Shown piece by piece: positions 5,966-42,530 of a DNA stretch of 42,947 bases. Below the pieces are notes generated by a model. It searched no databases, had not been told where the DNA came from, and saw only the letters and a program-made list of their open reading frames with translations. Each line of letters begins with the position of its first letter. Within the stretch, counting starts at the first letter, position 1. The position numbers were made by a program, and so were the translations under genes. The DNA is from Gracilaria domingensis (lineage: Eukaryota > Rhodophyta > Florideophyceae > Gracilariales > Gracilariaceae): positions 1-42,947 of the forward strand of contig VCMS01000387.1 in assembly GCA_022539475.1 (NCBI GenBank). The letters are read 5' to 3'.

Positions 5966-6313
5966 TGGATTGATCTGGACTTTGTTCGAGCTTTATGACC
6001 AGGTGCACTATCCTTACGGTCTTGTTAGAACTTGAATTGTTCCTGCATGGTGAGTTAAAAGAACAGAAGGTGAACAAATGTCCATGAGCTTGGAGTATTT
6101 GTTGCTGGGGACGATGAAGCGAAAAAAGTAAACTTTCAGCGCATTTCAACCATACTTTTCGTTTGGTGGCTCCCTCGTCATGTTTTAAGACCTCTTCACC
6201 GAGCGCTCCTCTCTCTCCCGTGGACTTTCCTTCCCATATTCACACAGTCAGATTGCGTTGTCGATCCCTTGCTGTGTCTCTATCTTCTATTCCTCCGCTC
6301 TCCTTCGGCGATC

Positions 6314-10250: not shown

Positions 10251-10257
10251 TATAAGA
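10251..10257 (+). promoter_or_regulatory. Possible TATA box of the OYE gene
   Basis: TATAAGA lies 105 bp upstream of the OYE start codon in an otherwise GC-balanced stretch. The position is reasonable for a core promoter with a short 5' UTR. It is a motif match only. Confidence 0.25.
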
Positions 10258-10361
10258 TAGCGCATCCCACGCAACTTGCTCTGACTTCATTGCCCGTCAT
10301 TCTCGTCGACCACTGATCATCTAGTTACCAAAGCCTTTGCTGGAGCATTTCACGCTTCAAA

Positions 10362-18230: not shown

Positions 18231-19931
18231 CTATAACCAGAGTGCCCCACGTAGCACTCTGGACAAGTGAGATACTGCAGATACAGATAATGGATTACTC
18301 GCATTGGTGATGTCCACCACTTCCTTTGCCTCTTTCTTGGACCCACTCAAGGTGGATTTGGTGTGAGACAACCCCCTGAGGAGAGCACGTTTATCCACCT
18401 TTCCATTTCCGGTTCTAGGGAGATCCTCCATGGACAATACCTGTGAGGGGACACAATAATACGGTAGATGTGCCCGAACCATGCGTACAACGTTCTCGGC
18501 CCTGACGTCAGCAGGTGTGACAAAAGCAACCAAGGACTCGTTGAACTTCAGGACAACGGCTTTCTTGACTCCTGCAGTGTTTTCTACCACTGAAGATACT
18601 CCATCCAACTCAACCCGGAATCCCTATACTTTCACCTCTTCGTCAACTCTTCCAAAATGTTCAAGCTCACCATCAACTGTCCATCGGCCTAAATCACCAG
18701 TGCGATACATTCGTGCCTTACCGCCAAGGAATGGATCCGTCATAAAGCGTTCCTTCGTAAGTGGAGTGTTACCCAAATATCGTCTCGAAACACAGTCACC
18801 ACCTGCTCACATTTCACCGACGTCACCCACACGGCACGGCGCAAGTGCTTCTCGATCCAGCACATAGACAGTGTTGTTGGGAGTTGGTTTTCCGATGGTG
18901 AGTCGGGTCTCGTTAGCTGTGTGCTTTTTTGCTGTATTGATGATTGTAACTTCTGTAGGTCCACAAGAGTTGTAAAACGTACAGAATTTACCCCATTCGT
19001 CCGCAAGAGCCCGGGGGCAGGGCTCACCAGCAACTGCAACAGTTTCAACATGATGCATTTTTGAAGAATCTAACGTTCCGAGAACAGTCGGGGTTGATAT
19101 CACAACTTGAGCATGACGAACAGCATGGGAAATATTTCGATCGCGAATGACTAACGTAGCGCCATGAGAAAGGCAGCCTAACACCTCCCAGGCGCACATG
19201 TCAAATGCAATGCTCAGAATCTGCGACACACGAATTCCGTTTCGCATACCCAAGCTTATGGGATCAGTGAGCAAAACATTTGCCACATTACCATGCGTGA
19301 CTTGAACGCCTTTAGGTAAACCAGTAGTACCAGAAGTGGAGATGATATAACAGGTATCTGACGGACGTACAGAATGTTGAGGCTGCTTAAATTGAGGAAG
19401 CTTCGTTCCTTCTTCCTCTGCCTCCTTGACCGTGAGCACAGCGGTTTCTGAGAATTGCGGAAGTCCTGAGGCATGCACATGGGTGGTTAAGATGACAGGA
19501 GCTTGAGCAGCAGCTGCGACACGGACTAATTGCGCATGGGGTGCAATACGGGCGTCTTGCGGTACGTAGCTGGCACCAAGTCGAAGAATTGCGACGATTG
19601 CGACAAGCATATCAAGCCCTCGAGAAAGAAAGATACAAACAGAATCTCCAGAAGCAACACCGTGAGCTTTCAGAGCAGCCGAAACAAGATTGGCACGTTT
19701 ATGGAGGATGGCGTACGTTATTTGTTCTGTTAGATGTATAGACCCGTTGTGCTGAACTGTGTGGGCAGCCACAGAATGCGGATATTTGGTCATTGCATCG
19801 TGGATTGCTGATATGATAGTTGGGTGGGTGGGCGATATCGATGCGCCCGCTGAAAACTCACAGAAGCGTTTGCGATCATTTGCCGAAAGAGAAACAAGCG
19901 CTGGGTCTTGGGGCCATAGAGAAGTGCTCAT
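18231..19931 (-). pseudogene. Adenylation-domain enzyme (AMP-binding/NRPS-like), two internal stops
   Basis: One continuous frame of 567 codons from ATG 19931 (MSTSLWPQDPALVS). It would activate an amino or other carboxylic acid as acyl-AMP. Core motifs in order are LGASYVPQDARI (A2), CYIISTSGTTGLPKGV (A3, phosphate loop), FDMCAWEVLG (A4 region), YNSCGPTEVTI (A5), IGKPTPNNTVYVLD (A6), MYRTGDLGRW (A7), GRVDEEVKV..GFRVEL (A8) and PRTGNGKVDKRAL (A10, catalytic Lys). TGA at 18807-18809 stands where GEMWAGG is expected (Trp to stop). TAG at 18624-18626 lies inside A8. With two nonsense codons in frame it is almost certainly a pseudogene, though everything else is intact. The sequence after A10 may have led into a carrier domain. 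Specificity residues were not decoded. Confidence 0.9.
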
Positions 19932-21186
19932 CGTGAGTAACAGTCTGATTTGAGGCGAAGCCAGGGTAGGGACCAGTGCGGTGCGGTACTTCACGGGAAC
20001 ACTCCAAGGCCTGGTGGAGAAGTCGAATGGGTAGCAACTTGCTCGGCCAGTTCTTCTTATGTAGTACAATTACGAGAGTATTGAGCAGTTAAAAATACCA
20101 AAAGCGGAACACTTATCCGGGGGATCGATTCATAAATCCTTGAAGACGTAAGAGAAAGTAAAAGAAGCCCAACGAGTTGCACCAAAGACCGAGAGCATCA
20201 CCACATTGCTGAATGGAAAGGAGATAAACAACACATCAGTGTCACACGAAAGAATGCGACGAAAGGATTGTGGAGCTCCCACTCCAGAAACCAACATGCA
20301 CATTTGTCTCTTGTACGTCCGCACGGGTGTGGCTTCTCCACGGTTTTCAGGACCTGAGAAGCCGGGCAAACGAGCATCATCCGAACATTTTGCCGGTGAA
20401 TTGTGATCGCAGTAACTGGAGAACGTGATGTTCGCTGTTCTATTCGAAGATGGCCGAATTCTTCGGCATTCGTCAGCGAAACGGTCCCGTGGCGTATTAG
20501 CGTGCCGCTTCGTAGTCATTACTGCGAATTCATGACGGCAAAAAGGACAACCGCCCAAATCAAGACTTGTTTGCAAGGCAAGCTCTCCCTGGAAAACTGC
20601 TCTAACCACTCTAAGCCTTAGCTTGAGAATGAACAAGCAGTTTTGGTGAGGGCGATCATTATGACTGGTCGTGGTGCAGCGAAGTGGCTGCTATTCGAAG
20701 TGCCACTTGTGTGGCGGGCGAAGAAACGTGGCGGTGGAGAGGGAAGGAAACGAGGCGTACACACATGGGCACACACATGACCACGAAGTCGCTGGCAGCA
20801 AAAAGCGTGTGTGTTGGCAGGAGAGCGCCGCAGTTGTGGGTATCTCGGTCGTGCATTGGCACCATCCTGATGCCTACGGCTGCAGCGATGAACGATATAA
20901 CCAACTGTCTCATGTTCATTATATTTTCATTGATTTCAGTAGCTGATAAAGGAAATTACCGAACTTTCAACGACGGCAGTGAATGTGAAATAAGTTTACA
21001 GAGCATCAATTGAGTCTTCCAATCCAGGGAGCTCTGGAAATGAGAAAGGGCGAGTTCATTTAGAGCTCACTGAAGTTCAATTTTTTAAAGAAACAGTGTG
21101 CACTGACAAGTCACTGAAATTTAATAAAAATTGACCATGTCACTGAAGTTTTACATACAAATTACTGAGATAGAGTTTTGCCTGGG
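19932..21186. other. Intergenic with short TCACTGAA repeats
   Basis: No convincing gene. Near the retroelement junction an AT-rich stretch carries a repeated short motif, TCACTGAA(G/A)TT, at 21067, 21111 and 21140. Partial CACTGA and TTACTGAG versions lie between and after these. They may be remnants of an older repeat or a target hotspot. Confidence 0.4.
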
Positions 21187-22190
21187 GACCCTTCAACTGT
21201 CAGATCGAGCTCCACACTTCCGTGACCAACAGACTGCAACTTGGAATCATTGCCGATACTCACACCCGACGACACCTTTGTCTCGTACGTTTGGAACATT
21301 GAGTCATCATAAGTCATGTGTGCAGTAGCTCCAGAGTCAACAATCCAGTCACTGTTAGTGGCCTTGTCGGCACCATTCGCAATGAGGCATACAAAGTCAG
21401 AATCGCTGCCGCCCGTACCTTGCTCATCGTTGAGCGCGGTATGTACACTTGGGTAAGCAGCATCGATCTGATCCTTGTTAGCCCCATCACGTTGCTTTTT
21501 GAAACAGTTCTTCTGGATATGACCCTTTATGCCACAATAGTAACACACAACCCACTTCAATGACTTCCTACGAAACTGGCGTCCCACGAGTGCATCATCA
21601 CTACCGTACTCCTCCTTGGCAAGATCACTCATACGTTGCCCTTCTTGCAACAGACTGCTCTTCACAAACTCCATAGTGAGTTGGCGATCTCCGATCGTGG
21701 TGTCAATTGCAACAATGAGGTGTTCGAAACGTTCCGGAAGTCCACGTAGAGCAGCCATAGCAATGTCCTCTTTTTCAACGTTGACGTCCATACTCTTGAG
21801 TTCGGAGGCCAAGTGCCGAACACGATTGATGAATTGCAACATCTTCTCGTCCTCGCGCATCTTGACAGAGTAGAAAGCACGTCTGGCGTTGATTCGGTTC
21901 AGAAGAGTCTTGCGTTGAAGCACATTGCAAATGGCCTTCCATGCGTTAGCAGCAGTCTCGATGTCTCGAATGTGATCCAAGTGCTCGTCGGCAAGCGTGA
22001 GTCCAATGATAGCTCTGGCCCTTTCGTCGCGGATTTGCCACTTTACCAGTTCTTCTTCATCCGTGGGTGCAGAAGTGGTGAGATGGTTCTTGAGGTCTTT
22101 CAGTGCAAGTACATACTGAATCTTCTGCTTCCAAGTATGGAAGTTATCCTCAATCAACTTCTCGATCTTGAGCCCACCAACCGAATGCAT
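21162..22190 (-). pseudogene. gag: Copia gag and start of protease (copy B), open but truncated
   Basis: 342 residues, open throughout. The order is the copia gag domain (NNFHTWKQKIQYVL-like start, LADEHLDHI, FYSVKMREDEKMLQFINRV), a CCHC zinc knuckle (CYYCGIKGHIQKNC), then the protease active-site block WIVDSGATAHM. It keeps the Trp before IVDSGA that copy A has lost, and lacks copy A's 13 bp insertion. The last seven residues (PGKTLSQ) come from flanking DNA after the breakpoint. It is closely similar to copy A but not identical. It is labelled a pseudogene because integrase, RT and RNase H are absent. A retained gag ORF could still be expressed. Confidence 0.8.
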
Positions 22191-22496
22191 AATGTAAGAG
22201 AGGAACTGCTGATCAAGTCAAACACGGCAGACGGAAATAGGCAGCAACGGCAGACAACAACAGCAAACAACGATAGCAAACAACAACAATAAACAACAAC
22301 AACAACAACAATAGTAGAAAGAATACTTCAATAGTCGGGACCACTGGCAGGAACTAAATTCCCAGTACCCTAGGGGATCGGACCCCTGACCCCCGGAGAC
22401 CCTCCGGGTAGGAAACGACTTCTGCAGTCTACCTCCTCCTGCGTTCCAGGAGAAGGCGCGTTGCTCTCTACGAGGCGTCCAAAGGATGGTTAATGA
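21187..22496 (-). mobile_element. Inverted fragment of a second copia element (copy B)
   Basis: This stretch is the reverse complement of the leader and gag part of the neighbouring element (copy A, about 24186-25560). It covers the conserved leader block, the GTT-rich tract, gag and the start of protease. It begins exactly at the first base of copy A's 5' LTR and ends near 21186, where homology stops abruptly after the protein sequence VELDLTVEGS. It has no LTR or PBS of its own. The left part of its leader is missing, and it is not found after copy A. So it is either a target into which A inserted, with later loss of one half, or the product of a rearrangement. Confidence 0.85.
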
Positions 22497-23284
22497 TGTT
22501 GGACGTTGACCCTGTGCTGTCACTGAAAACCAAAAGTGCTGGAGAGCATGGGCTGTTTTGGAGGGTGCCGTTGGAAAAGCGCATATGCGCCTCTGAGCAA
22601 AATCAACGTGAAACGGGCTTCTGATTGGTTACTGCAAATGGTCATATGCATTGTGGTTGGTACAAGTGTTGTGGCGCTAATGGGTTGTTTTCAGGGTACA
22701 CGTGTGTAGCTAGTACACTGGGCATGCTGTACATGATGCACAGGGTACACATGTATGTACGTGGACATGTAGGACAGCTTCATGTGACTTTGGCACTATG
22801 GTGAAGAGTAGATGCGCTGTCAAGAGGTTTACACTGTGGTATTGTTGGTGACGTAGGACTTGGAGTGAGTGTGTGGTGACCTGTTAGTTGGTGAGCTTGT
22901 ACGTAACTGTTATGGTGGCGTGCACGGATTACAGTGTGTTGGCACTATGTGAATCTGTACATGGTGATGGTTATGTGTAGGCACGTAACTTGATGTGCAC
23001 GGTTGTGCAGTGTTGTGCGTTGTTGTGCTTTGTTGTTGTAAGCTGTCATGATAGTGTGGCAGTGTTACCATGTTATGTTAGAAGATGATTGGTAGTATTG
23101 AGTGTCTCTAGCTAGTGGTTTAGGTATTGCTTGGAGTTGGAGTTGTGCAATGGTTGCGCAAAGTAGTTCTATATAAGCGGTGACTCGAGCGCCTGCAAGT
23201 AAATTCCGAGCCAGAGCTGGCGAACTTCCCTTCATTCCCCCCATCCTTTCTTCAACCTTCCCTTCTCAGCTACAACCTCTATCA
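22497..23284 (+). repeat. 5' LTR of copia copy A
   Basis: 788 bp starting TGTTGG and ending CTATCA, directly before the primer-binding site. It matches 28610-29360. It contains GTGCACTGTTGTGC-type short repeats and a TATA box near its 3' part. The TG...CA ends agree with integrase-processed LTRs. Confidence 0.88.
23170..23177 (+). promoter_or_regulatory. LTR TATA box
   Basis: TATATAAG, conserved in both LTRs (also 29272-29279), in the position expected for the retroelement RNA start. Transcription would begin in the downstream 30 or so bases. Confidence 0.6.
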
Positions 23285-23306
23285 GGTTATGGGCCTAGCC
23301 CCGCTG
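23285..23306 (+). other. Primer-binding site for a half initiator-Met tRNA
   Basis: Immediately after the LTR the sequence reads GGTTATGGGCCTAGCC. It is nearly complementary to the anticodon stem-loop region of initiator tRNA-Met (GGGCCCAUAACC in the tRNA) rather than to its CCA end. Drosophila copia uses such an internally cleaved tRNA-iMet as primer. The match was recognised by eye from family knowledge. Confidence 0.75.
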
Positions 23307-24540
23307 ACCTCTGCCGTTATCGTTCGTCTATAGCCGCTCTCCCTCACCGCCGTTCACCCGCTTCGCTGTTTTCCCTTCTTTCTCCTTTCGTCGTTGCGTC
23401 GGGTGTGTTGACCGTGTTGTTGGTTGGTGTTGATCTTCTTCTTTCGGTCTTGCGTTCCTCCCTGAGGGCGTTGTAGTGGTAGTGTTTCGACGTTGATTCT
23501 GTATCGTGATTGTGTTTGGGCGCTCGTTGTTGCCCGTGTTGTCGATCGCTATCCGTTTTGTTTGGTCTCCCTCTGTCGTTATTGTTGGGATCCCCGCGTC
23601 GTGTTGCGGGTTATGATCCGAGAGGTTGAGAACCGTTCGTTGTTCAAGTCTGTGCACTGCGTGTGTGCTCAGCAGTTGTTGAGGTCTGTGCACTGTGTGT
23701 GCTCAGCGTTTGGGGTTGTCATCTGAGATCCAGCGACGAGCGGTTGATCCGAGCAATCGGGGACGTTAGTCTGGCGGCTTGAACCAAAGCGGACGTGCTG
23801 TCTAGCGGGCTCCCACCGGTCCTTCGGGTCGGATAACGGTGTCGGTCGGAAGACCTGGTAGTACCGCGAGTGCTGAAGTGGACGGGGTGCCGTGACGCAC
23901 TGTTGGACTTGGGTGGCTGACCTTTGTAGTTGTTGACCTGACTTTGTGTCGGGTTTTTGATCTGTGGTGAAGGCAAAACAAAACGAGCTTTTGATCCGTG
24001 CAACCTCGGTTGAGCGGGGAGGCGACGTACCGAAGGCTGACCTCCTTTTCAGGATCAGGCAGCGTGTGGGCATTATTGTCTGCTCGTTAGGAGCGTACCT
24101 TGGTTTGTCATAGTAGCTGCAGTTTCGAGGTCGCGCAAGTTCTTGCAAGAGGCCAGATTGGGTTAAGTGGTGAAGACATATCTTTGGTCATTAACCATCC
24201 TTTGGACGCCTCGTAGAGAGCAACGCGCCTTCTCCTGGAACGCAGGAGGAGGTAGACTGCAGAAGTCGTTTCCTACCCGGAGGGTCTCCGGGGGTCAGGG
24301 GTCCGATCCCCTAGGGTACTGGGAATTTAGTTCCTGCCAGTGGTCCCGACTATTGAAGTTTTTGTTGTTGTTGTTGTTGTTTGCCGTTGTTGTTGTTTGC
24401 AGTTTTTGTTGTTTGCTGCTGTTGTTTACTGCTGTTATTTTCTGTCGTTGTTTGCCGTCCTTGTTTGCTGTCGTTGTTTGCCGTTGCTGTCTACCTGCCA
24501 CCGTCGTATTTGATTTGCTCCCCTCTTTCCTTCTCACAAC
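23307..24540 (+). other. Long copia leader with GTT-rich tract
   Basis: 1.2 kb of untranslated leader between the PBS and gag. The block at about 24186-24358 is conserved in copy B. It is followed by an imperfect (TTG)n/(TTTGCTG)n tract at 24361-24490. The tract has a different length in copy B, as expected of a microsatellite. The short ORFs here are not credible. Confidence 0.6.
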
Positions 24541-25497
24541 ATGGATTCGTTCAGTGGGCTAAAGATCGAGAAATTGGGTGAAAATAACTTCCACACATGG
24601 AAGCAGAAGATTCAGTACGTACTTGCACTGAAAGACCTCAAGAACCATCTCACCACTTCTGCACCCACCGATGAAGAGGAACTGGCGAAATGGCAAATCC
24701 GAGACGAAAGGGCTAGAGCGATCATTGGACTCACGCTTGCCGACGAGCACTTGGATCACATTCGTGACATTGACACTGCTGCTGACGCATGGAAGGCCAT
24801 CTGCAATGTGCTTCAACGCAAGACTCTTCTGAACCGGATCAACGCCAGACGTGCTTTCTACTCTGTCAAAATGCGCGAGGACGAGAAGATGTTGCAATTC
24901 ATCAATCGTGTTCGGCACTTGGCCTCCGACCTCAAGAGTATGGACGTCAACGTCGAAGAAGAGGACATTGCTATGGCTGCTCTATGTGGACTTCCGGAAC
25001 GTTTCGAACACCTCATTGTTGCAATTGACACCACGATCGGAGATCGCGAACTCACCATGGAGTTTGTGAAGAGCTGTCTGTTGCAAGAAGAGCAACATAT
25101 GAGTGATCGTGCCAAGGAGGAGTTCGGTGGTGATGCAGCACTCGTGGGACGCCAGTTTCGTAGGAAGTCATTGAAGTGGGTTGTGTGTTACTATTGTGGC
25201 ATAAAGGGTCATATCCAGAAGAACTGTTTCAAAAAGCAACGTGATGGGGCTAACAAGGATCAGATCGATGCTGCTCACCCAAGTGTACATACCGCGCTCA
25301 ACGATGAGCAAGGTACGGGCGGCAGCGATTCTGACTTTGTATGCCTCATTGCGAATGGTGCCGACAAGGCCACTAACAGTGACTGTATTGTTGACTCTGG
25401 AGCTACTGCGCACATGACGTATGAAGACTCAATGCTCCAAACGTACGAGACAAATTCACGAGAGAAAGGTGTCGTCGGGTGTGAGTATCGGCAATGA
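24541..25497 (+). pseudogene. gag: Copia gag and protease start (copy A), cut off by a 13 bp insertion
   Basis: It starts at ATG 24541. A gag domain (about residues 10-200) is followed by the zinc knuckle CYYCGIKGHIQKNC and the protease block CIVDSGATAHM. The normal Trp before IVDSGA is Cys here. A 13 bp insertion at 25455-25467, absent in copy B, throws the frame to an early stop at 25495-25497. The inserted bases make an imperfect tandem duplication of ACGAGACAAATTC. In an intact element the frame would continue into pol as one polyprotein. Confidence 0.9.
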
Positions 25498-28400
25498 TTC
25501 CAAGTTGCAGTCTGTTGGTCACGGAAGTGTGGAGCTCGATCTGACTGTGGAAGGGTCCAAACGTAAGTGCAAGCTGAAGCAAGTGATGCACGTGCCTAAC
25601 TTGCGGTACCACCTGTTGTCAGTGCCGCAGATTTGTGATTTGAACTGCACGGTAGTGTTTGACAAAGAAAAGGTATGTGTGTACAAGGGGTCAAAAGTGG
25701 TTGCCGTTGGGCGCCGCGTCAAAGACCTGTACTACCTTTGCACTGCTGCAGAGCAGCTCACGGACACGGACAGTGCACTTGTGTCAGACTTGTCTCTTTG
25801 GCATGCTCGAATGGCTCATGTGAATGTGGAAGGCATCAAGCAGATGGCTCGAAATGGCGTTGTGTCAGATCTGAATGTGGATGTGGCTGAGAAGGTGGAT
25901 GTGTGTGGCTCATGTGTAGTGGGCAAAGCAACCCGTGCTCCGACTCCCAAGCAAGGGGGGAAAAGAGCTGAACACGTACTGGACCTGGTACACTCCGATA
26001 TTTCGGGTCCAGTGAACGTGAAGTCCTTGGGAGACTCGCACTACTTTGTCACATTCATCGATGACCACAGCCGTTACTGCTTCTTGTACATGCTCAAGAC
26101 GAAGGATGAGGTGTTCCGGATGTTCATCAAGTGGCTCAGGTTTGTGGAGAACCAGATGGGCAGGAAAGTGTTAACCATCATCGCTCGCAAGAGTGTGTTG
26201 CGTGCATTGCGCACTGACAATGGTGGTGAGTACTTGTCCAATCGGTTCTCCGAAAAGCTTGAGCAGTACGGTATTGAGCATCAGCGAACTGTGCCTTACA
26301 ATCCACAGCAGAACGGGCTAGCCGAGAGGTTCAACCGCACACTCATGGACTTGGTCAGGTCAATGTTGCATCACAAGAATGTGCCAAAAACCTTTTGGGC
26401 TGAGGCTCTGAATGTCTCTGTGTATGTGCGCAACAGAGTGACCTGCAAAGCGCTTCCGAGTGACGTGACGCCGTTTGAGCTGTGGCATGGACAGAAGCCT
26501 GATCTGAGCAATCTGCGTGTGTTTGGTAGCCGTTGCTGGTACAAGGTGGTTGATCACAAGTTGAAGAAGCTGGAAGAGCGTGCAGTGGAGTGCATCTTCA
26601 TTGGGTACACTTCAGGCTCCCACGGGTACAAGTTGTGGGACAGCCAGAAGAAGAAGGTGATTGTGTCACGAGATGTGAGGTTTGACGAGTGCTCTGCAAC
26701 TGGAAGTGACGAGCACTCTGAAGACGAGGACTACGCGGATATCGACTTGGTTGACAAGTCGAGATCTACTGAAGCCTCAACCTCCGACACATCCGCCGAT
26801 CATTCTGAAGATGACTCTTCTGCACCAGCTTCTCATGAGAGTACCACGAATTCCAGTACGGATGAACACACCACACCAGTTCCACAAGATGAGCCGGAAG
26901 TGACAGAGACGCAGCCCCTTCGTAGATCCACGCGTCAGAGAAAGACGCCATCCTCGTGGTGGCGTGGTGCCAGTGCTTTCCTTACAGCCAGTGATGATAC
27001 TCCTTCGTCGTACGGTGACGCAGTGTCACGTCCTGATTCCGAAGCTTGGAAGAAGGCGATGAAGAGTGAGTATCAATCGTTGATGGAGCACGACACATGG
27101 GATCTAGTGCCAAGGCCAGCAGACAGCAATGTGATTTCGTCCAAGTGGGTGTATGTACAGAAGTATGAGGCTTCGTCATCTGGTGAACCGACAGTGCGTT
27201 ACAAGGCTCGTGTGGTTGCAAGAGGCTTCCTGCAGATCGAGGGTGTGGACTTCTCAGAGACATATGCACCTGTGGTGAAGTTCACATCCATCAGAATGAT
27301 CCTGTCAGTCACTGCCGTACGAGACTTCCACTTGCACCAGATGGATGTGAAGACTGCGTTTCTGAACGGTGACCTTGACGAGACAGTGTACATGGAGCAG
27401 CCAATGGGATTCACACAGCAGGGAAAGGAGGACTTGGTGTGCCGACTGAAGAAAGCGATCTATGGGCTTAGACAAGCACCAAGACAGTGGCACGCCAAGA
27501 TATACGCCTTCCTTGTTGGTGAAATGCACCTCAAGCCGAATGACGCAGACGAGTGTGTCTACACCGGGATCATACTGGGTTTCTTGGTTATCATTGCTCT
27601 GTATGTTGACGACTTGCTGATTGCCAGTCCGAGCATGAAAACCTTGGAGCGTGTGAAGGCAGAGCTGTCAAGTCGTTTCCGCATGAAGGACCTCAAAGAA
27701 GCTCGCATGGTTCTTGGATTTGAAATCCATCGAGACAGAACCAAGCGAGAGCTGTACTTGACTCAGTCAGCGTACACGAACAAGGTCCTGGAGCGATTTG
27801 GCATGCAGCTGTCGAAACCCGTTGACACTCCTATGGAGTGCGGTGTGGACTTGTCTGTTGAGGAGGAAGTGCTCACGCATGTACCGTATCGTCAGGCGAT
27901 TGGCTGCCTCATGTATCTCTCTGTGGGAACTCGTCCGGATATCTAATATGCTGTGGCTAAGCTGGCCAAGTATGTTGAGAAGCCGGGCAACACTCACTGG
28001 AAGGCGGTCAAGCGTGTTGTTCGCTATCTCAATGGCACTACCACGTTCGGGTTGACGTATGGCTCCAGCACTGATTTCCAACTGCACGGCTATGTGGACT
28101 CCGACTGGGCTGGCGATGTTGCCAACCGCAAGTCCACTAGTGGATACTTGTTCATGATGTGCGGTGGTGCTGTGTCGTGGTCGTCTCGTCAACAGGAGGT
28201 AGTTGCTCTGTCGAGTGCAGAGGCTGAGTACGTGAGCTTGTGCTCTGGCACGAAGGAGGCAATCTGGCTTAGGCGACTTTGGAACGGCATTGGCAGTGCA
28301 ATTGGAATCGAGGCAGACGGGTCTGCAAAGCTGCTAATTGAACCAACTCCCATGTATGTTGACAACTAGGGCAGTATTGACCTTGCTCGAAATGGAGTGG

Positions 28401-28588
28401 TGAACAGGAGAACCAAACACATTGAGATTCGGTTCCACTTCACTCGAGAAGCTGTGCAGGCCAAGTCGATTGTACTGTTCTACTGCCCGGCGGATTCCAT
28501 GGTTGCCGACATGCTGAATAAGCCACTTGCCCGAGTGCAGCACGAGAGGTTCCGCGAAGCCGGTGGTGTGATCCACATAGAAGTTTGA
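25468..28588 (+). pseudogene. pol: Copia pol: protease end, integrase, RT, RNase H, with two nonsense codons
   Basis: Resumes in the frame after the 13 bp insertion. The GAG-pre-integrase zinc region (LWHARMAHVNVEG...CGSCVVGKA) is followed by the integrase core DDE residues (HSDISGP, RTDNGGEYLS, GLAERFNRTL). An acidic linker comes next, then RT (LHQMDVKTAFLNGDL, with catalytic YVDDLLIA), then RNase H (GYVDSDWAGD, SSAEAEYVSL). TAA at 27944-27946 follows RPDI where one residue is expected before YAV. TAG at 28367-28369 stands in the YVDN.GSIDLARN block. The first nonsense removes RNase H and the second the last 73 residues. The last stop, 28586-28588, is followed by the polypurine tract. Confidence 0.93.
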
Positions 28589-28598
28589 AGTCAGTGAC

Positions 28599-28609
28599 AG
28601 AGGGGGGGG
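28599..28609 (+). other. Polypurine tract
   Basis: AGAGGGGGGGG directly before the 3' LTR. It would prime plus-strand DNA synthesis. Confidence 0.8.
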
Positions 28610-29360
28610 TGTTGGATGTTGACGCTGTGCTGCCATTGACAACCAAAAGTGCTGGGGAGCATGGGCTGTTTTGGAGGGTGCCGTTGGAAAAGCGCATGTG
28701 CGCCTCTGCACAAACTCAACGTGAAACGGGCTTCTGATTGGCTACTGCAAATGGTCATATGCATTGTGGTTCGTACAAGTGTTGTGGCGCTAATGGGTTG
28801 TTTGCAGGGTACACGTGTGTAGCTAGTACACTGGGCATGCTGTACATGATGCACAGGGTACACACGTATGTACGTAGACATGTAGGACAGCTTGGTGTAA
28901 CTTGGGCACTATGGTGAAGAGTTGATGCGGTGTCAAGAGGATTACAGTGTGGTGTTGTTGGTGACGTAGGACTTGGAGTGAGTTTGTGGTGAAGTGTTGT
29001 TGGTGAGCTTGTGCGTAACTGTTATGGTGTCGTGTAGGGATTACAGTGTGTTGTCACTATGTGAATCTGTGCATGGTCATGGTTATGTGTAGGCACGTAA
29101 GTTGTTGTGCACTGTTGTGCACTGTTGTGCTTTGTTGTTGTAAGCTGCCATGATAGTGTGGGAGTGTTACCATGTTATGTTAGAAGATGATTGGTAGTAT
29201 TGAGTGTCTCTAGCTAGTGGTTTAGGTATTGCTTGGAGTTAGAGTTGTGCGATGGTTGCGCAAAGTAGTTCTATATAAGCGGTGACTCGAGCACCTCCAA
29301 GTAAATTCCGAGCCAGAGCTGGCGAACTTCCTTTCATTCCCCCCATCCTTTCTCTCAACC
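28610..29360 (+). repeat. 3' LTR of copia copy A, end truncated
   Basis: Starts TGTTGGATGTTG and aligns with the 5' LTR, including the TATA box, up to about 29360. There the similarity stops about 30 bases before the expected CA end. The following DNA is unrelated to the copia leader or to copy B. Confidence 0.85.
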
Positions 29361-29739
29361 CTCGTCTGTGTTTCCGGGATGCTAGTTTACAGTTCAAAAA
29401 TCGCAGAAAAAAATGCTAGTATTTCATATGTTAAATTGCGATTAGTGGAAGTTTGAAGTGGAAGAAAAACTAGAGTAAACTCCAGATTCTGCAGTATGGT
29501 TTGAATGGAATACTAGGCTTAACTTTCAAACTACGAGCTATTTCTAAGAAATATGAAAGTTGCTAGAATCTTAGAACTAACTTCCATTTCTGCTAGTTCA
29601 CTAGTACTACCGGTCCATCGGTCCAAAAGAGCCATCGGTCCGAAAGCACGGTGGAAGTTCCATCCTAGCAGAAATGAATGTTATTGATGCAGTATTGCAG
29701 GTTCATGCAAGGTATAGCACCACATGAAAACAGGTCCAA
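29361..29739. repeat. AT-rich inverted-repeat stretch (MITE-like)
   Basis: No ORF. It contains nested inverted repeats: CATTTCTGCTAG at 29585 against CTAGCAGAAATG at 29665, and CTAGTATT near 29413 against AATACTAG near 29508. A direct repeat, CCATCGGTCC, occurs near 29614 and 29632. The composition differs from both sides. It may be a small non-autonomous element or rearranged debris at the LTR breakpoint. Confidence 0.45.
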
Positions 29740-34733: not shown

Positions 34734-37286
34734 TTAGTGACGTTCTATCCAATTCTCCTCATGTAATCCTTCTTGCACAGACCTTTCCCTCACATCCCTC
34801 TCTGCAGTTATGTCGTAGAACATACGGTCTCCCCGACTGCAGCATCCAACATAGCAATCCAGTACAGCTCCGAGCTTCTCAGAGATCTCTCCCATAAACA
34901 CATCTTCTCGGACAGCAAGGTACATTTTCCTTTTCGACGGAATCCAGTAAACCGCAGTGCCCACCCGGTCATCATTTCCATGCCGCGCATCTTCAGCATT
35001 CGATGGGCCATTTATGAACTCTGTTGGATAACTCTGCTGCATGCGGACCCTCACGGTCTTCAGTATACTCTCAAGTGCCAGTGGTAGATATTTCCCGAAC
35101 AAGTTGGAGAACAACACTTGTCTCTTACCACCTCTCCCTCGTTCAGACTCTGTCGCGCGAACAACGGACGCTATCCAGGCATCAAGACGTGCCAGATGCA
35201 TAATTGTTCCATCCACTGGATCCCTCTCTTCGGTATTCCTCGAACTTGTTTGTAAAACGTCGTAGCCCATGAACTCACGCAGCACCTCCAAGCTCAGGCT
35301 GTTCCGAAAAAGCAAGTCACATGGTTCATCTTCGGTTGCATGATATGGGTTAAAGCCCGAGAAACATATATCTTCTACCTTCTGAGTTCTCCACGACGAC
35401 AGAATCTCACATCCATTTGCATCTTCGAGTAGAAGTTTTTCACGTACCTCTCTGGTTTGTATTTCATACTTGTTCTGCTCCCTTTCATCATTTTTTATCG
35501 GGGTCCTTACAAGCATGTCGTAACCTAGTCCCATCAATAACTTCTCCTTCGCATGGCGTTTTCGAACACCTATTGCATCACTTAAAGCCTGTTTCAACCT
35601 TCTGCGCAAACAAATTTCGTGCGTTAACTGTTTCACACAGTCATCTTCCATTTTCATTCCTCGGATAGATTCCCAACGTGGCTTCATTACCTCCGTCTCC
35701 ACAATTTGCATCAAAAAATGGTCGCCTCCACGACGTACGGATGGCGTGTACGCCCTCATCTCCATGGCAAGATCCATTGGGCACCGTGGCACTATCTCCT
35801 TCCCATCAACAACCAGCACACTGTCGTCTTTCTCAGGTCCAACTGTCTCACTTCGGTTGCCCCAGTTCCTTGCCGGTATACTCATCTCGAAGCATAGCTC
35901 TCTTGTCTCGTCTTTGGCGTATTGAAGTATGGAGTCATAGATGGTCTTCGCAACACCAACAAACTCGTCGTTCACGTCAATGTTGTACCGCTTCCTGCTC
36001 TTGTTACTGTCACGTTCGTTCCTTTTCCCTCCACGTCTGAGAGCCTCTCTCAAAGAGTGTATGAGAACCTCTTGTTCTCTGACCTTAACCTCCAGTTGCT
36101 CTATGTTCTTCTGAGCAAGTCGTATGCTCATTTTCAGACTTTGCTTGTCCTCTATTGTACGATACAGATCTCCCTTCAGTTTCCCGATCTTTTCCAAAAG
36201 CTCGTATCGCGGAGTAAGGGATTCATCTTCATCTTCTTCCATTGCACCATGCAGGGAAAAGCTCCGTGACAAAGCACCACGATCAACATCTTTATCGTTC
36301 CATACTTCTCTACGGGCGTTTGCTATGACAGGTTGCCGATCGTTCTCCACCCGTCTATTCTCATTTCCATGGTCCGTCCTTCTTCTGACCTGATTGAACC
36401 TGTTTCTCTGTGACTCACCTGTGACTGGTGTCGGTTGTATCTCGTCTTCGTCTTCGTCTTCCTTGTGTCTGGACCCAATATGAGGGACGGAATCATGCTT
36501 GCCTTCGATGGGAGCCATATGCGTTGCATTTCCGGCGTCCACGTTGTCGTTCGCCTCCACGTTATCCTTGTCCTCGACGTCACTTGGGATATCTACTGCG
36601 TCCGTGGACTCCCGCTCCTTTCTTCCACTGCCTTTCTTGGCACGAGAGATACCCTCATTCATTTTCTCGTTCCTCTTCACTTTTCTCGAATCATAACTGT
36701 TACGTTCTGTTCCGGCAGCGCTTCTGGGTATCTCCCTATCCCCAGGTTCGGCTCTAGGTTCGGCTCTCACGATGGCGCAATCCACGGTTTCCATCTCCGC
36801 ACTGTCATCCGCTGTTCTCACCTTGTCGAAACAATCATCGATACGAGGACCTTCTGTTCCTCCACTGCCTCTTGTCCTCCTTACATTCTGACGTACAGCC
36901 GTTCTTCTCTTATTTCCTTTCATCGCTTTGATATCTACATGTCCATCATCACTGACCCTTGGCTCTTCCATTGCAGCCATGTGGCGTGTAACAGGCCCAC
37001 GCATTGCACTATCCTTGGCTTGAACGGTTTCACTTACTGTGCGTTCCGTAGTGCATGTGGAAGCTCCTGACCTCCTTCTCGGTTTTACTTCCGATACTGT
37101 AGATGAAGATTTTGGTTTGCGAAGTCCAGCACGAGGTGCTCGGCCTCGGCTACCTCTCCCATTAGTAGCACTACTTCGTGAGACGACCGCGCTCCTGCGT
37201 TTGGCCACCCCAGTATCCCAGCGCTCCGGCGGTACCGATGCCTTTCGCGGTTTACCACCTGCATGCTCCGCACGTTGAGGAGTCAT
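34734..37286 (-). CDS. Large basic coiled-coil protein, possible transposon passenger
   Basis: The frame is open from 37580. ATG 37286 (MTPQRAEHAGGKPRKAS) is the likely start, because upstream residues look like translated leader. It gives 850 residues without lesions. The N-terminal 400 are disordered, Arg/Lys/Ser/Asp-rich, with several nuclear-localisation-type clusters and an acidic run (HKEDEDEDEI). A coiled coil follows (LLEKIGKLKGDLYRTIEDKQ to EQEVLIHSLREALRR). The C-terminal 380 or so look globular (for example RCPMDLAMEMRAYTPSVRRGG and RVGTAVYWIPSKRKMYLAV). I recognise no family. It is tail to tail with the transposase and upstream of the MTase-SET gene on the same strand, so it could be an element-encoded nuclear partner. 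A host gene is equally possible. Confidence 0.6.
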   Translation of the reverse strand: MTPQRAEHAGGKPRKASVPPERWDTGVAKRRSAVVSRSSATNGRGSRGRAPRAGLRKPKSSSTVSEVKPRRRSGASTCTTERTVSETVQAKDSAMRGPVTRHMAAMEEPRVSDDGHVDIKAMKGNKRRTAVRQNVRRTRGSGGTEGPRIDDCFDKVRTADDSAEMETVDCAIVRAEPRAEPGDREIPRSAAGTERNSYDSRKVKRNEKMNEGISRAKKGSGRKERESTDAVDIPSDVEDKDNVEANDNVDAGNATHMAPIEGKHDSVPHIGSRHKEDEDEDEIQPTPVTGESQRNRFNQVRRRTDHGNENRRVENDRQPVIANARREVWNDKDVDRGALSRSFSLHGAMEEDEDESLTPRYELLEKIGKLKGDLYRTIEDKQSLKMSIRLAQKNIEQLEVKVREQEVLIHSLREALRRGGKRNERDSNKSRKRYNIDVNDEFVGVAKTIYDSILQYAKDETRELCFEMSIPARNWGNRSETVGPEKDDSVLVVDGKEIVPRCPMDLAMEMRAYTPSVRRGGDHFLMQIVETEVMKPRWESIRGMKMEDDCVKQLTHEICLRRRLKQALSDAIGVRKRHAKEKLLMGLGYDMLVRTPIKNDEREQNKYEIQTREVREKLLLEDANGCEILSSWRTQKVEDICFSGFNPYHATEDEPCDLLFRNSLSLEVLREFMGYDVLQTSSRNTEERDPVDGTIMHLARLDAWIASVVRATESERGRGGKRQVLFSNLFGKYLPLALESILKTVRVRMQQSYPTEFINGPSNAEDARHGNDDRVGTAVYWIPSKRKMYLAVREDVFMGEISEKLGAVLDCYVGCCSRGDRMFYDITAERDVRERSVQEGLHEENWIERH

Positions 37287-37750
37287 CCGAGATCCTTCGG
37301 CCTTCGTGCGCGGTAGTATTACGGAACAGATATAGAAACGTGAACGATACTGAAGGTATATGATTGAGAGTGATATGTGAGGGTCACGTACTCGGTGTGC
37401 AGGACTGATATGTGAAGGGGAGGGGAATTTAACCTCGTACTGCATATATGGAGAAAAGCATTCTGCAGCATTTGTGGCGGATCGGCATTCAATTTTTGGA
37501 CCTTTCCCCGGTCCATATTCCGGACTTGCTCCGATTTTCCCGGATGTTGCGCCCTGCATATACAAGTACGGCACTTTCAACGATCTTTCATACCACTATA
37601 TGCATCAATATGTTACACAGTACAGCTTGAGTGTACATATGAGTAGTATTTCTGCAATCATGGCAGAAGTGTTCAATACAATTTACTTCAACAAAAAGCT
37701 TTTCTCACTACATTGAGCCCATACGAAGTTCAAGGACATTGTCTGAGAAC
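37287..37750. other. Spacer between the coiled-coil gene and the MTase-SET gene
   Basis: Probably the promoter of the coiled-coil gene and the 3' flank of the MTase-SET gene. No ORF is supported. Confidence 0.4.
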
Positions 37751-40700
37751 CTAGGTTAACCTTTCCCAAGGATATGTGGGTCCATAGTCAACGTAAATTT
37801 CGTCGTGTTCCTTAATGTCCCTTGAGGCCGTGACTACGAGGAGTCTGTAGTTCTCCAAAAGCCCCAAAGTTGTAGCCTGATACTCTGTGGGCTGGCGAAT
37901 GAATACATTTGGTTTGCGTGCCAGGTTAGAATCCATTTCTTCCAATTCCTTGTCCTCATCACCTTCACGATATGACGCGTCATTGATATAGCCCGCTACA
38001 CAGAAAGGAGCAGGAACTATCCAGGCATGACCAGTGTTGACTTCAGTATCATAATGCGGGAGAGTGTTGTACATTTGCCCCTTCACCCTCACTTGCATGC
38101 AATACTTCCTGAACCGAGATGCAGTGGCCCCCAGCATTCCGTCTCCATACTTCAAATGTGTGGTATTGTGTCGGCTTAGATCATGATACACCAAGGTCCC
38201 ATAAAAGTATCCAATAACCTCCCCTTCGGAAAACGCCCTACTCGTAAATACTCCATTTCCACTTGCTGCATGTTTGATATTCGACTTCTTCACATAGAGC
38301 CATAGCGATGTCGCCTCGACAGAGAGTAAAGTGTGACTGTCCAACGTAGTCATCTTCCCTTGTAAGGCAAGTGGCCACTCATGGAACGGTTTCTCTTTGT
38401 ACGTAGTGATAAGACCAGGTTCATTCCAATAGGTGGATAGGTACGACATGATATGGAATGGGAAAGATTGGTACGATGGGAATCCCTTGGGTGCATTCCA
38501 TATAGTCGAAGTCTTTCGTTTCCGTTCAGGAAATTTGGCATCCACCACATAAGACGCTTGAACTACCTCATTCGTAACCGGTTCTTTCATCTTCAATTCA
38601 TTGCGCCACACCTTTCTTGCGTAATGCACAATAGCATTGTGCTTGGCATGAGAGAAACACTGCTCATCTTGCTCACATCAAATGAAACGCCGAGGCCCTC
38701 AATATCCATACATGCCAGCGCGCACGAGAACGTCCCGGAGTAGAGATCAACCACAACATCCCCGGGATTCGAGAACCTCGCTATCAGCTCCATCAGTAGT
38801 TGCCTCGACTTTTGTTCTGGACGAGCCTTCGCGGTTCGAATTCTTCTACCACTCTTCACTCTCCATCGGAGACTCTCCCCAGGCGTAAGATTTGGAACCT
38901 TGTCAATGATAGAATAGTGCCCAGGATAGCGAGCTGAAACGTAGTTGAAGTTCTGATAGTTCACCATTACCTTCTGTTCCGCGTACGGGTTTCCATTCCT
39001 CACGCCATGCACGGCGTACTCCGTCGCCCCAAACAGGCGAGTAGTATTACGCGCAGGGTTCTTCAAGGGGTTCGAACGAGAACGAATGAAGTTCATGGGC
39101 GTCGAATCCACTAAGAATGATGCGGTTTTCTTTCCGCTTGAGTCCTCCGACTTGTGCTCTCGCGAAATCTCTTCCCAGTCTCCAAACTGGTCGATACTGC
39201 CGAACAAAACAAATGTCCTCCTGGTCGAAGCATGGATGCCATGATGTCCGCAGTATTTTCCATATCATCGTCAGCCAATTCGTCGTACTCGCTGTCGCGG
39301 ATGCCATATGGTGGGTCTGTGAGCACGAACTGAACGTTGCCTTCCAAAGATGTATCCGATGGGAAGATAGTACCATGGGCCTCCACCAGTTCGTCATATC
39401 CGACACAATGCATTGAGAATTGCTTCTCCATGCTTCTTCGCACCACATCTAGAGCATTTAACGTGCGCGTGTCATCAAAGTCATGAGGGGGGAGAACCCC
39501 ATCTGGAACGTTATCTTTCGCCCCAACAGAGGCACCAGGTGTATCACCTTCTTCATTGTCGCTATCGAGGATGACGATGACATCGGAGTTAACTGAGCTT
39601 TTCCCTGCGGCGTTCCTCTTGGAGGAGCTCGGAATCTGTATCGAGTCCTCAACCTTAACCGTGACGGTATTACTTCCTCCATCCTGCCCTGAAGGAGCGG
39701 CCCTAGGGATAAGTCGAGATGGTTGAAGGTTATGTACAGACATCGCTTGACGAATAGAAGACACGTACTCTTTGGAGAATACATTGAAACGGGGTGGTAC
39801 TCGTGCGGGGCGGCTAGGTCTGAAGCTTTCCAACAAATTCCATCTTGACGTTGGGGAATTTTGTATAGGAAGCCATTCAACACAATCTTGCTGAAATCTG
39901 CCAAGAATTCCTTTGCCAACTCCCGTAAGTTGGCGTCGATAGTATCCGGAAGAGTATGAACCCAAGAAACGGTGTCGTTCACATCCAACGTGGGTTTCAG
40001 TTCTTCCCCCAACGTATGAAAAGCTGACTCCGGACTGTACCCAACAGAGCGGGATTCAATGACATGGAACCCAAGCGACTTCTTTTCTACAAGCAGGTAT
40101 GGCAGCAACATCTGCTCACCATCACCAAAGCCTAAGGTTGAGGCAAAGAAATCCCATCCCTTACAAATCGTTTGCACTGCATGTGCCATCCGTCTCCCGT
40201 GCGTCTCATTCGAAGCTATGTAGCCGTCGACGAACTGCACAGCTCTATGGGTTCCCTTCCCGGTCTTTCCTCTCTTCGACGCTGGGAGATTTCTCTCCGA
40301 AGTTATATGCTTCACGAAAGAGAGATAGAGTAACTGCTGAAAACGAGTGGGAGGCCCAATCCTGAACGTAGTTCTCTTCGTCTGCTTACTGCCTGGACCA
40401 TGTCGTTTGAAAAGGTCATTCCAGAAAGCCCGTTCTATGAACGAGTTACCGTTGTCGACATCCTTTTCAAGACTCCAGGTAAACAAATCTCTCACGCGCC
40501 GATCAGAATTCTCGTCGTCTAGATCAGTGATACCCGTATATTTGTAGACCCTGCTCAGAAAACGCACGTCCGGACAGATCTTCGTGACTTCTTTTGCGGA
40601 GTAGTTTTGGAAAGGACCCTTGACCGCAGTGTTGATGAACTCTCGTGCACATGCCAGGTGTTCACGGTTTGATACAGCGTATTCCACAACTTCCGTGTAC

Positions 40701-40914
40701 CCAACTTCACGCGGATTACCAGTACCACTTCTTGAAGCGGCATACGCATCTCGCAACTCAATGAACAACCCCCAACATTTCAAGAAACGCGTTGCCATGC
40801 TGGCTGAATCGAACGACGCGCTAGAGGATGCGCTAGAGAAACCGTGCCGTGGTTCTCATCGGCCAGCACACTCTGCTTAACAGTCCGAGGAGCGCCATTT
40901 CCGGTGGACGCCAT
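37751..40914 (-). pseudogene. DNA N4/N6-methyltransferase plus SET-domain protein, four frameshifts
   Basis: Five successive minus-strand frames read as one protein of about 1050 residues starting at ATG 40914 (MASTGNGAPRTVK). The first 400 or so residues are an unrecognised region (ERAFWNDLFKRHGPGSKQTK, RIGPPTRFQQLLYLSFVKHI), followed by a Ser/Asp-rich linker. An amino-methyltransferase domain comes next: FVLTDPPYGIRDSEYDEL (motif IV, DPPY), LRPGGHLFC, a target-recognition-like stretch, then RPEQKSRQLLMELIARFSNPGD and VVDLYSGTFSCALAC (motif I). Motif IV before motif I is the beta-class order. Last is a SET domain: SGNGVFTSRAFSEGEVIGYF, YINDASYREGDE and RDIKEHDEIYVDYGPTY. Frame changes fall at about 40855-40780, 39965-39840, 39225-39200 and 38680-38630. 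Each equals one missing base. No nonsense codon occurs in the expected frames. This could be a recent pseudogene or sequencing deletions. Confidence 0.75.
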
Positions 40915-41194: not shown

Positions 41195-41224
41195 CATCTT
41201 TGAACATCGCCCGAGCGCGGTGTG

Positions 41225-41300
41225 GGAACCGCGGTTCGCCGAGTTCATAGCCGAGATCATAGCTATGATCTCGGCTATGAACTCGGCGAACCGCGGTTCC
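41225..41300. repeat. Perfect 76 bp palindrome, left copy
   Basis: Two 38 bp halves are exact reverse complements with no spacer. The centre is ATCATAG|CTATGAT, and each half contains the smaller palindrome GAACCGCGGTTC. It would extrude as a cruciform. The next base pair outward is a mismatch. Confidence 0.95.
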
Positions 41301-41403
41301 GGCACGGCGCATCTGACGAAACGCCACGTGTATACCGCCGAAAGGACCCCCCCTGATGACCCCCTGGAGGACCCCTTGCTGGCATTTATGTGGGCAGTGA
41401 CGT

Positions 41404-41542
41404 CGAATAAACGGGAGAGCGATGGAGACGCGGATGACACTTCGGACACATTGTGTAGCAAGCGTGGAAGACGGAGGGGAAGGGCTTGAGGAGGAGAGAC
41501 GATGCGGTGGGAGCGGAGCAGCGCACGGAGGGCGGCGGCCAT
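41404..41542 (-). other. Possible captured gene fragment (N-terminal presequence-like)
   Basis: The unique centre of the inverted-repeat element, read on the minus strand, has ATG at 41542. The codons begin MAALR-like (MAAALRALLRSHRIV) and continue with Pro/Leu/Arg/Ser-rich sequence without acidic residues for 30 or so positions. That is the composition of a mitochondrial targeting peptide. The frame then runs into the arm. It would fit a host exon carried by a Pack-type transposon. Chance is possible because the segment is short. Confidence 0.3.
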
Positions 41543-41721
41543 CGACGGGGCGTCACTTATTCACTGCCCACATAAACTCCAGCAAAACCATCAGGTAGTT
41601 GTGGTGTGGGTGAGAACAGGTGCTTTGGTGCGCATTGTGTAGTAGAAGTGGTCTCCAGGGGGTCCTCAGGGGGGGTCCTTTCGGCGGTATACACGTGGCG
41701 TTTCGTCAGATGCGCCGTGCC

Positions 41722-41797
41722 GGAACCGCGGTTCGCCGAGTTCATAGCCGAGATCATAGCTATGATCTCGGCTATGAACTCGGCGAACCGCGGTTCC
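41722..41797. repeat. Perfect 76 bp palindrome, right copy
   Basis: Identical in sequence to the left copy, inside the opposite arm of the inverted-repeat element. Confidence 0.95.
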
Positions 41798-42077
41798 CAC
41801 ACCGCGCTCGGGCGATGTTCAAAGATGATGAAAGGCGGGGACAGTGGTCAACCAGGACGGAATCAGACATTGATCCAACCATTTATAACCATCAGGAACT
41901 GTACCCACACTGCTCACGTGGGCACTGCAGCCGTTTTGAACGTGAGTGGTTGCGTCCATTGTGCTCACGCGAGAAAAGGCGGAGATTCGAACACGAGCGG
42001 TTGCAACTTCACGGGAGCAAACGTACGATTTGAAGAACACCAGGACTCGTGTATATCACACACACTGGCACCATATA

Positions 42078-42530
42078 ATGGATATGAGGGGACTGGGAAA
42101 GGGTCAAATGAGACGCTCTCGAAAGGTGAGAAAGCCTCGACGAACCATGGCACCACAACTTCGGAGCGGGACCAGAACTGCTGAACCGAACGCAGCGACG
42201 GGGAACGCATCCACAGCTATGAAGTCGAAGCCCGCACCAGGCGAAGAAGTGACCTTGTTGTTGGGAGGGGCAGGAGGGAACAAAGCAGCGATTGGGAAAG
42301 CTGTTCTCGTTGAAGTGGACGCTGGTGGAGGGAAGACAACGTTCAGAAGGGAAATGCATGGACATGCTCTGCAGGGAAAACCAGGGGAAGATGTAGTTGG
42401 TATATGGCGAGCGAAGATATCTCATGAGCTTGACACTCCCTATCCCTATCCCTTTAAGTGTACCGATGAAGATTCTGTTCCGAAGACATTGAAGGACATG
42501 ACAGGCCCGGTTTCTACGCCTGGGACCTGA
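42078..42530 (+). CDS. Small basic protein of unknown function
   Basis: ATG 42078 (MDMRGLGKGQMRRSRKVRKP) gives 150 residues. The N-terminal 40 are highly basic and look like a nuclear-localisation or nucleic-acid-binding tail. The rest contains GEEVTLLLGGAGGNKAAIGK and KAVLVEVDAGGGKTTF, a weak nucleotide-loop lookalike without a true Walker A. HELDTPYPYPFKCTDEDSVP follows. A second in-frame ATG at 42144 (MAPQLRSGTR) is an alternative start. I recognise no family. Coding potential is suggested only by the length and orderly composition. Confidence 0.35.
   Translation: MDMRGLGKGQMRRSRKVRKPRRTMAPQLRSGTRTAEPNAATGNASTAMKSKPAPGEEVTLLLGGAGGNKAAIGKAVLVEVDAGGGKTTFRREMHGHALQGKPGEDVVGIWRAKISHELDTPYPYPFKCTDEDSVPKTLKDMTGPVSTPGT

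Follow-up and report, generated by a model that had tools for sequence, protein, structure and literature searches.

Organisation of the locus

We analysed a stretch of 42,947 nucleotides from Gracilaria domingensis (contig VCMS01000387.1; referred to as the window), in which a gene joining a DNA amino-methyltransferase (MTase) to a SET domain lies inside a Plavaka-type transposon. The genome assembly comprises 77.9 Mb in 680 contigs; labels beginning with C denote contigs and those beginning with L denote loci, and the copy counts given for the genome are lower bounds, the best candidates having been scored. The features of the element in the window are presented in Table 1. Four overlapping open frames on the minus strand (pieces A–D), each in a changed frame, make up the MTase–SET gene. 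When the pieces are scanned separately against Pfam, pieces C (N6_N4_Mtase) and D (SET) each exceed the curated cut-offs, while no Pfam family is found in piece A and nothing above the threshold in piece B alone. A preliminary description of this DNA had placed the motifs DPPY and DLYSGTFS and a SET domain on one strand in consecutive frames, and these positions are confirmed, on the minus strand.

The gene of the window is a frame-broken copy. Since the copy on contig C12 keeps one open frame over the whole gene (1,118 amino acids, aa), the frame changes are breaks of the window copy; introns, the other explanation considered, are ruled out, as C12 is open across the same stretch. The breaks fall outside the indel-rich end of the contig (41646-42947). 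In that last part identity to C12 drops to 96.8%, with 23 gap openings in 1.3 kb vs 12 in the 10.8 kb inside, and because of these many small indels assembly errors are likely there.

Table 1. Positions of the MTase–SET gene and of the other features of the transposon in the window.
Feature	Positions	Strand	Remarks
Left terminal inverted repeat CGTCTGTGTTTCCGG (15 bp)	29363..29377	+	Homology of the window, C12 and C399 copies begins here; inverted copy at the C12 right end
Plavaka transposase, main frame, 876 aa	31388..34018	+	Pfam PF18759 3.2e-22; same frame resumes past one stop
Transposase frame continuation, 232 aa	34019..34717	+	Same reading frame after one in-frame stop
ORF2, 953-aa frame	34734..37595	-	Coiled-coil-like by eye; no known family, sub-threshold Pfam match only
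MTase–SET gene, broken copy	37751..40914	-	Frame shifts between pieces A–D and near the 5' end
Piece A: N-terminal region and linker	39461..40855	-	Open frame, no Pfam family
Piece B: start of the methyltransferase domain, motif IV DPPY at 39306-39317	39114..40055	-	Sub-threshold Pfam methyltransferase matches
Piece C: remaining methyltransferase domain, motif I DLYSGTFS at 38725-38748	38596..39264	-	Pfam N6_N4_Mtase 7.5e-7
Piece D: C-terminal SET domain	37754..38677	-	Pfam SET 4.5e-7
Palindromic stretch, two 175-nt arms (99% complementary), each with a 48-nt-arm hairpin (94% complementary)	41195..41827	.	Form differs between copies
ORF4, N-terminal piece (ParB-like and putative dioxygenase)	41946..42530	+	Matches the beginning of C140 ORF4 at 95% identity over 189 aa

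The intact fusion protein and its copies in the genome

The protein of the C12 copy (P0004, 1,058 aa) contains both domains in one polypeptide: N6_N4_Mtase (PF01555) at residues 531-762 (1.3e-14; 55.2 bits, cut-off 26.7) and SET (PF00856) at residues 890-1049 (2.3e-6; 28.4 bits, cut-off 22.4). Together with the same architecture in 23 public proteins, this bears out the proposal of the preliminary description that a single polypeptide combines a beta-class amino-methyltransferase with a SET domain, and excludes a lack of significant matches to the two models in the intact translation. The fusion had thus been recognised correctly, while the broken state of the window copy and its setting in a many-copy transposon had been missed.

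Two further subfamilies are present. The second (C157, P0002) is 64% identical and the third (C164, P0003) 35% identical to P0004 over the alignment. In P0003 both domains also score in one polypeptide (57 bits for PF01555 and 32.3 bits for PF00856), and the 1,055-aa open frame of this subfamily is stop-free in four places (C164, C597, C171 and C47). Across the genome, piece D (SET) has at least 135 matches, fragments included (128 of 639 candidates scored), and PF01555 has at least 150 matching places (150 of 328 candidates scored); the few PF01555 places which were inspected are MTase–SET genes or parts of such genes. On contig C382, which has three PF01555 matches, a 1,170-aa MTase–SET frame (L136:914-4423) contains EPPY in place of DPPY and is perhaps a catalytically dead, retained form.

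The fusion of methyltransferase and SET domain is real: it is not due to chance, since it recurs in the 23 public proteins and the SET piece has so many matches in the genome. Bacterial contamination is ruled out by the neighbouring genes in the window (Plavaka transposase, Copia pol and tnp2 transposase), and also by the number of assembly matches and by the scan of prokaryotic genomes with two back-translated patterns, in which no relative was found.

Catalytic motifs, predicted chemistry and selection

The alignment used for the motifs contains 26 proteins, namely 23 public relatives (described below) and P0002–P0004. The motif order of the methyltransferase is permuted, motif IV preceding motif I (DPPY, then GTFS, in P0004). 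DPPY is found in 24 of the 26 proteins, P0003 having DPPF and P0019 YPPY. The catalytic motifs of SET domains are GxG-F, the Asn of the NHS motif and a C-terminal YG. In P0002–P0004 the GxGVF, the Asn (within IND, which stands for NHS) and the YG are all kept, and across the 26 proteins the SET motifs are mostly retained; the C-terminal YG is missing or changed in P0019 (which is cut short), P0022 and P0025. The preliminary description allowed that the two domains might always be separate in homologues: this is not so among the 26 aligned proteins, short single-domain relatives being outside the length range of the search.

By profile match, the nearest solved structures of the methylase are DpnA (3e-13) and CcrM (1.6e-9), followed by two chains that bear just the name 'Methyltransferase', and by RsrI (1.7e-7) and MboIIA (3.7e-7); N4-cytosine enzymes come after these, at 0.0027 and weaker. 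The SET domain matches EZH2-containing chains (6e-5) and SETD8 (7.8e-4) over short stretches. DPPY is usual in enzymes forming N6-methyladenine (6mA) and SPPY in those forming N4-methylcytosine (4mC). The predicted product is more probably 6mA, because of the DPPY motif and because the nearest named structures (DpnA and CcrM) are N6-adenine enzymes. That the methylase forms 4mC instead is improbable: the Pfam family spans both chemistries and the profile also finds N4-cytosine enzymes weakly (8s9m, 0.0027; PvuII, 0.057), but the DPPY of 24 of the 26 proteins and the N6-adenine specificity of the best named structures argue against it.

The ratio of nonsynonymous to synonymous substitution rates (dN/dS) was estimated for C12 vs C157, a pair picked as intact. 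It is 0.09 over 1,008 codons, and by region 0.11 for the SET domain, 0.11 for the N-terminal part and 0.21 for the linker. For the methylase, dS is saturated in this pair, with proportions of nonsynonymous (pN) and synonymous (pS) differences of 0.143 vs 0.783; between C12 and C164, dS is saturated in all parts except the methylase, where dN/dS is 0.17. Both enzyme domains are under purifying selection.

Ends of the element and position of the gene

The C12 element is 19,977 bp long and has the 15-bp terminal inverted repeat (TIR) CGTCTGTGTTTCCGG at both ends. The window, C12 and C399 copies are 98-99% identical from position 29363 through the transposase, ORF2, the MTase–SET gene and further. 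An 18-mer of the left end (from 29367) occurs 50 times in the genome with at most one mismatch (reversed control: 0), and a 17-mer of the right end 40 times with one mismatch allowed (reversed control: 1). A SET match lies 7.5-10 kb inward of 28 of the 50 left ends, at a median of about 8,436 bp and in antisense orientation in all 28; for four left ends the nearest SET match is outside this range (the matches used are mainly of at least 70% identity).

The flanks were compared in 11 end pairs, ten picked from the left- and right-end lists and that of C12. Identical 2-bp flanks are found in six (C202 AT, C266 TA, C25 AA, C96 TA, C120 CG and C277 TT), and the flanks differ in five (C140, C469, C233, C12 and C293, the left end of C293 being altered). 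At 1/16 for each pair, six or more matches of 11 would have a probability of about 3e-5 as calculated by hand, for a boundary that was picked after the flanks were seen. Plavaka elements are characterised by a target-site duplication of 2 bp (or 3 bp), which agrees with the 2-bp match of these six pairs. The reported Plavaka termini are TGT..ACA (PlavakaA) or CATCA..TGATG (PlavakaB) (PMC12730594), vs CGTCTGTG..CACAGACG here; the element is of the Plavaka type by its transposase, while its termini match neither PlavakaA nor PlavakaB. The inverted ends, the fixed position of the gene and the conserved gene neighbours uphold, as far as its place is concerned, the idea of the preliminary description that the gene is a transposon's own epigenetic tool. 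Its other idea, a new eukaryotic chromatin writer, stands as a proposal.

The C12 copy is located within ORF4 of an element that belongs to the other family (L030:4323-4892), and C233 shares its right flank. The nested palindrome of the window copy (Table 1) is possibly a foldback insert. Subterminal 8-mers shared at the ends gave no candidate for a recognition site. GATC falls short of expectation in the C12 element (L009, L029 and L030; 45 seen, 71 expected), which is not the case in the flank of the window at 6000-21000 (65 seen, 58 expected).

Other genes of the element

The transposase is open for 1,110 aa in C12. Its PF18759 match scores 79.6 bits in the window (cut-off 26.3) and 69.6 bits in copy L013 (3.6e-19) of the second family (the third subfamily, about 35% alike in protein), in which the transposase is truncated and ORF2 is missing. 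The gene order transposase, ORF2, MTase–SET, ORF4 is found in a copy of the third subfamily (L028, contig C296), whose transposase piece by itself matches no Pfam family and is 54% identical to the window transposase over 305 aa. In the second subfamily (64-67%), L012 and L027 have DNA matches to the transposase, ORF2 and the MTase–SET gene with the order kept. Between the two families ORF2 has 32% identity and the same place, and ORF4 also 32%.

ORF4 is a single open frame of 1,326 aa in C140 and of 1,294 aa in C79; the frame is interrupted in C12, C8 and C164, and the remainder of the window ORF4 lies beyond the frame given in Table 1 and beyond the window. The two whole ORF4 proteins contain no Pfam and no NCBIfam family. 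In the C-terminal part the motifs HTD and GDVxHAG are invariant in four sequences, and we take them to resemble the motifs of Fe(II)/2-oxoglutarate dioxygenases. We hypothesise that ORF4 may be a ParB-like and dioxygenase protein. Its putative dioxygenase domain has at least 150 match rows in the genome (149 of 521 candidates scored). Adjoining the ORF4 of the second family, as part of the element or as a neighbour, is a HAD-like hydrolase frame (L053:2125-3069; PF08282, 6.1e-5). On contig C8 (L023 joined to L054) a 435-aa frame with hydrophobic stretches by eye lies near the right end of the element (joined positions 12350-11046, minus strand); the corresponding pieces of C12 contain no Pfam family above threshold.

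Distribution of relatives

In the protein search, in which candidates were 0.55-1.75 times the length of the query, P0004 has one relative, P0001, at 27% identity. With P0001 as the query, 23 proteins including itself are found (638-1,167 aa; sources 'ena' and 'lgn'). Both PF00856 and PF01555 are precomputed in 21 of these, and PF01555 only in P0019 and P0024. In a rescan the SET domain of P0024 scores 17.8 bits (cut-off 22.4) and P0019, whose C-terminus is cut short, has none; both align over the SET region. A search with a profile of four sequences found none, although P0001 is in the database, and the misses of this search mean little. In the maximum-likelihood tree the proteins of the window's genome and P0022–P0026 are placed together (100/100), separate from the large group of P0001.

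The MTase–SET fusion was not found in the scans of viral and prokaryotic collections. A first viral scan, of limited sensitivity, returned 49 stretches and no relative. A second returned at least 599 stretches and at least 106 relatives; the 80 relatives listed align to residues 551-873 of P0001 (the methylase and what directly follows it) and never to the SET domain. Phage records account for 23 matches, and the best 15 of these 23 all fall within residues 574-874 (the methylase and the adjacent stretch). The best PHROG match of the methylase part is phrog_67, a phage DNA methyltransferase (three proteins, 3.6e-23 to 3e-27), which differs from the fusion in that no SET domain is seen and that the matches in the best 15 of the 23 phage records are confined to the methylase region and the adjoining stretch. 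A viral origin of the fusion, which was considered, is unsupported within the limited sensitivity of these scans, as the viral and phage matches listed never reach the SET domain. Two back-translated patterns gave 74 stretches and no relative in prokaryotic genomes.

Comparison with known systems

Fungal DNA transposons termed TET+ (Kyakuja, Plavaka and others) carry TET/JBP dioxygenases, which are read as counter-silencing tools (Kojima 2025, PMC12730594). The element described here resembles them in its large size and in having an epigenetic enzyme beside the transposase, Plavaka included; the enzyme of the TET+ transposons is a TET/JBP dioxygenase, and the passages of that paper on these elements describe no amino-methyltransferase or MTase–SET protein. 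Phytophthora HarbingerS and MuDR transposons that contain SET histone methyltransferase genes are cited in the same paper (PMC12730594). They are also DNA transposons carrying SET, but belong to other transposase superfamilies, and a fusion to a DNA methyltransferase is not described in its account of them. N4CMT of bdelloid rotifers joins a permuted, bacterial-type N6_N4_MTase to a chromodomain and is said to have no eukaryotic homologues (PMC8885841). It is thus a methylase of the same family joined to a chromatin domain in a eukaryote; however, a chromodomain reads where SET writes, and N4CMT is presented in that source as a host-kept gene of bacterial origin, not a transposon gene. In Amoebidium, Plavaka giant repeats consist of large groups of genes poor in introns, a Plavaka transposase among them; the cargo named there is tyrosine recombinases, and the term 'SET domain' is absent from the main text (PMC11244446). 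A review of fungal DNA methyltransferases brings up 4mC and 6mA in its introduction only, as far as its accessible text goes (PMC7862722).

Transposons carrying one chromatin enzyme are already known, and the MTase–SET domain fusion was not found described. No description of it was recognised in the open-access literature, and subscription papers could hold an earlier mention. We know of no transposon that encodes a DNA amino-methyltransferase and a SET domain as parts of the same protein. Were the protein active, one enzyme, spread by a mobile element, would write both a DNA mark and a protein mark. It would also provide a concrete source of 6mA in a eukaryote, a group in which this modification is disputed, and would offer a system where the coupling of DNA and histone marks is separable by point mutants. 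Eukaryotic PF01555 sequences may get discarded as bacterial contamination, and the MTase–SET family shows that some of them are genuine.

Proposed role and alternative explanations

There is very little doubt that the gene is a transposon-encoded MTase–SET fusion. We propose that its product of about 1,060 aa, consisting of an N-terminal region, a permuted DNA amino-methyltransferase and a C-terminal SET domain, would place 6mA on DNA through the former enzyme and methylate a lysine of histones (or of other proteins) through the latter, in both cases at or near transposon copies. These marks would act as an anti-silencing or self-marking device of the element, and ORF4, weakly ParB-like and dioxygenase-like, could aid the targeting or editing of the marks. 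A role in chromatin marking, most likely anti-silencing, is suggested because the gene has been retained alongside the transposase between families about 35% alike, because the active sites are largely conserved and because the TET/JBP enzymes of fungal transposons are a precedent. Taken as a whole, the statement that this is a cargo gene of a Plavaka-type transposon of about 20 kb, encoding an active bifunctional writer for anti-silencing or self-marking, is in our judgement evenly balanced between holding and failing. The broader proposal is more tentative and somewhat short of that: a two-substrate epigenetic writer and a transposon-encoded ParB-like dioxygenase might make up a cassette for self-marking, which would protect the element against silencing by the host and would have spread among many eukaryotic lineages.

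Several observations weigh against the proposed role. The window copy and many other copies are broken (stops or shorter frames), and in the SET domain IND takes the place of the canonical NHS. The putative dioxygenase part of ORF4 matches no Pfam family and the profile of the C-terminal part has no meaningful PDB match; the ParB-like matches in PHROG are weak (0.005 and 0.034) and occur in one of the two ORF4 proteins, with none in the other. As to a methylation target, no palindromic 4-mer stands out in the element vs its flank. In the list of SET matches used (128 of 639 candidates scored), 18 of the 50 left ends have none, and neither have C96, C120 and C202, three of the six copies with matching flanks; all three contain a transposase match, and C120 and C202 one to the ORF4 dioxygenase as well. 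Because of these copies, the MTase–SET gene would seem not to be needed in each copy, being dispensable in some or supplied in trans; C96, C120 and C202 may also be internally deleted, or their SET match may be absent from the scored list. Finally, a role in self-silencing or in transposition would leave the same sequence picture.

A function as a transposition factor is unlikely, though it has some points in its favour. DNA (and perhaps lysine) methylation would here time or license the movement of the element, for instance through marks on ends that have been replicated or excised, and the SET domain would tether or modify target-site nucleosomes; Dam methylation has such a timing or licensing role for some bacterial transposons. 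It would fit that the gene and the transposase, and their order, are shared by families about 35% alike, and ParB-like and coiled-coil-like partners would suit DNA-bound assemblies. However, C96, C120 and C202, for which the scored list contains no SET match, have a transposase match and matching 2-bp flanks, so that movement of the element may be possible without the MTase–SET gene or with help in trans; no recognition motif was found at the element ends. Self-silencing or dosage control, in which the protein would lay repressive marks and limit copy number, is rather improbable. Cytosine methyltransferases carried by retrotransposons have been considered to limit copy number by repressive marks in this way, the classical silencing activities are likewise two, DNA methylation and SET-domain methylation, and purifying selection on the protein is compatible with it; the high copy number (at least 150 PF01555 matches) speaks against it, as does the fact that the nearest named DNA enzymes form 6mA, which in fungi usually accompanies active chromatin. 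The view that these are host proteins multiplied by gene duplication, to which the transposon is just a frequent neighbour, is scarcely tenable, as purifying selection alone would fit a host gene but the fixed distance and orientation to the TIR ends and the identity of about 98-99% over more than 10 kb, transposase included, would not.

Surroundings of the element in the window

A Copia retrotransposon is found at 22497-29353, with copies resembling long terminal repeats at 22497-23251 and 28610-29353 and pol at 25418-27946; its end and the left end of the Plavaka-type element are about 10 bp apart. A large inverted duplication that contains gag-like frames (arms at 21277-22301 and 24430-25454) is present close to the Copia retrotransposon. 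A second element is represented by a 1,061-aa frame at 2807-5992 with a tnp2 transposase domain (PF02992, 5e-14), and a sequence resembling the Plavaka-type right end is located at 2752, near this frame. Between them, at 10485-20069, are ordinary host-like genes, namely an FMN oxidoreductase, an RPE65-family (carotenoid-oxygenase-like) protein and an AMP-binding enzyme.

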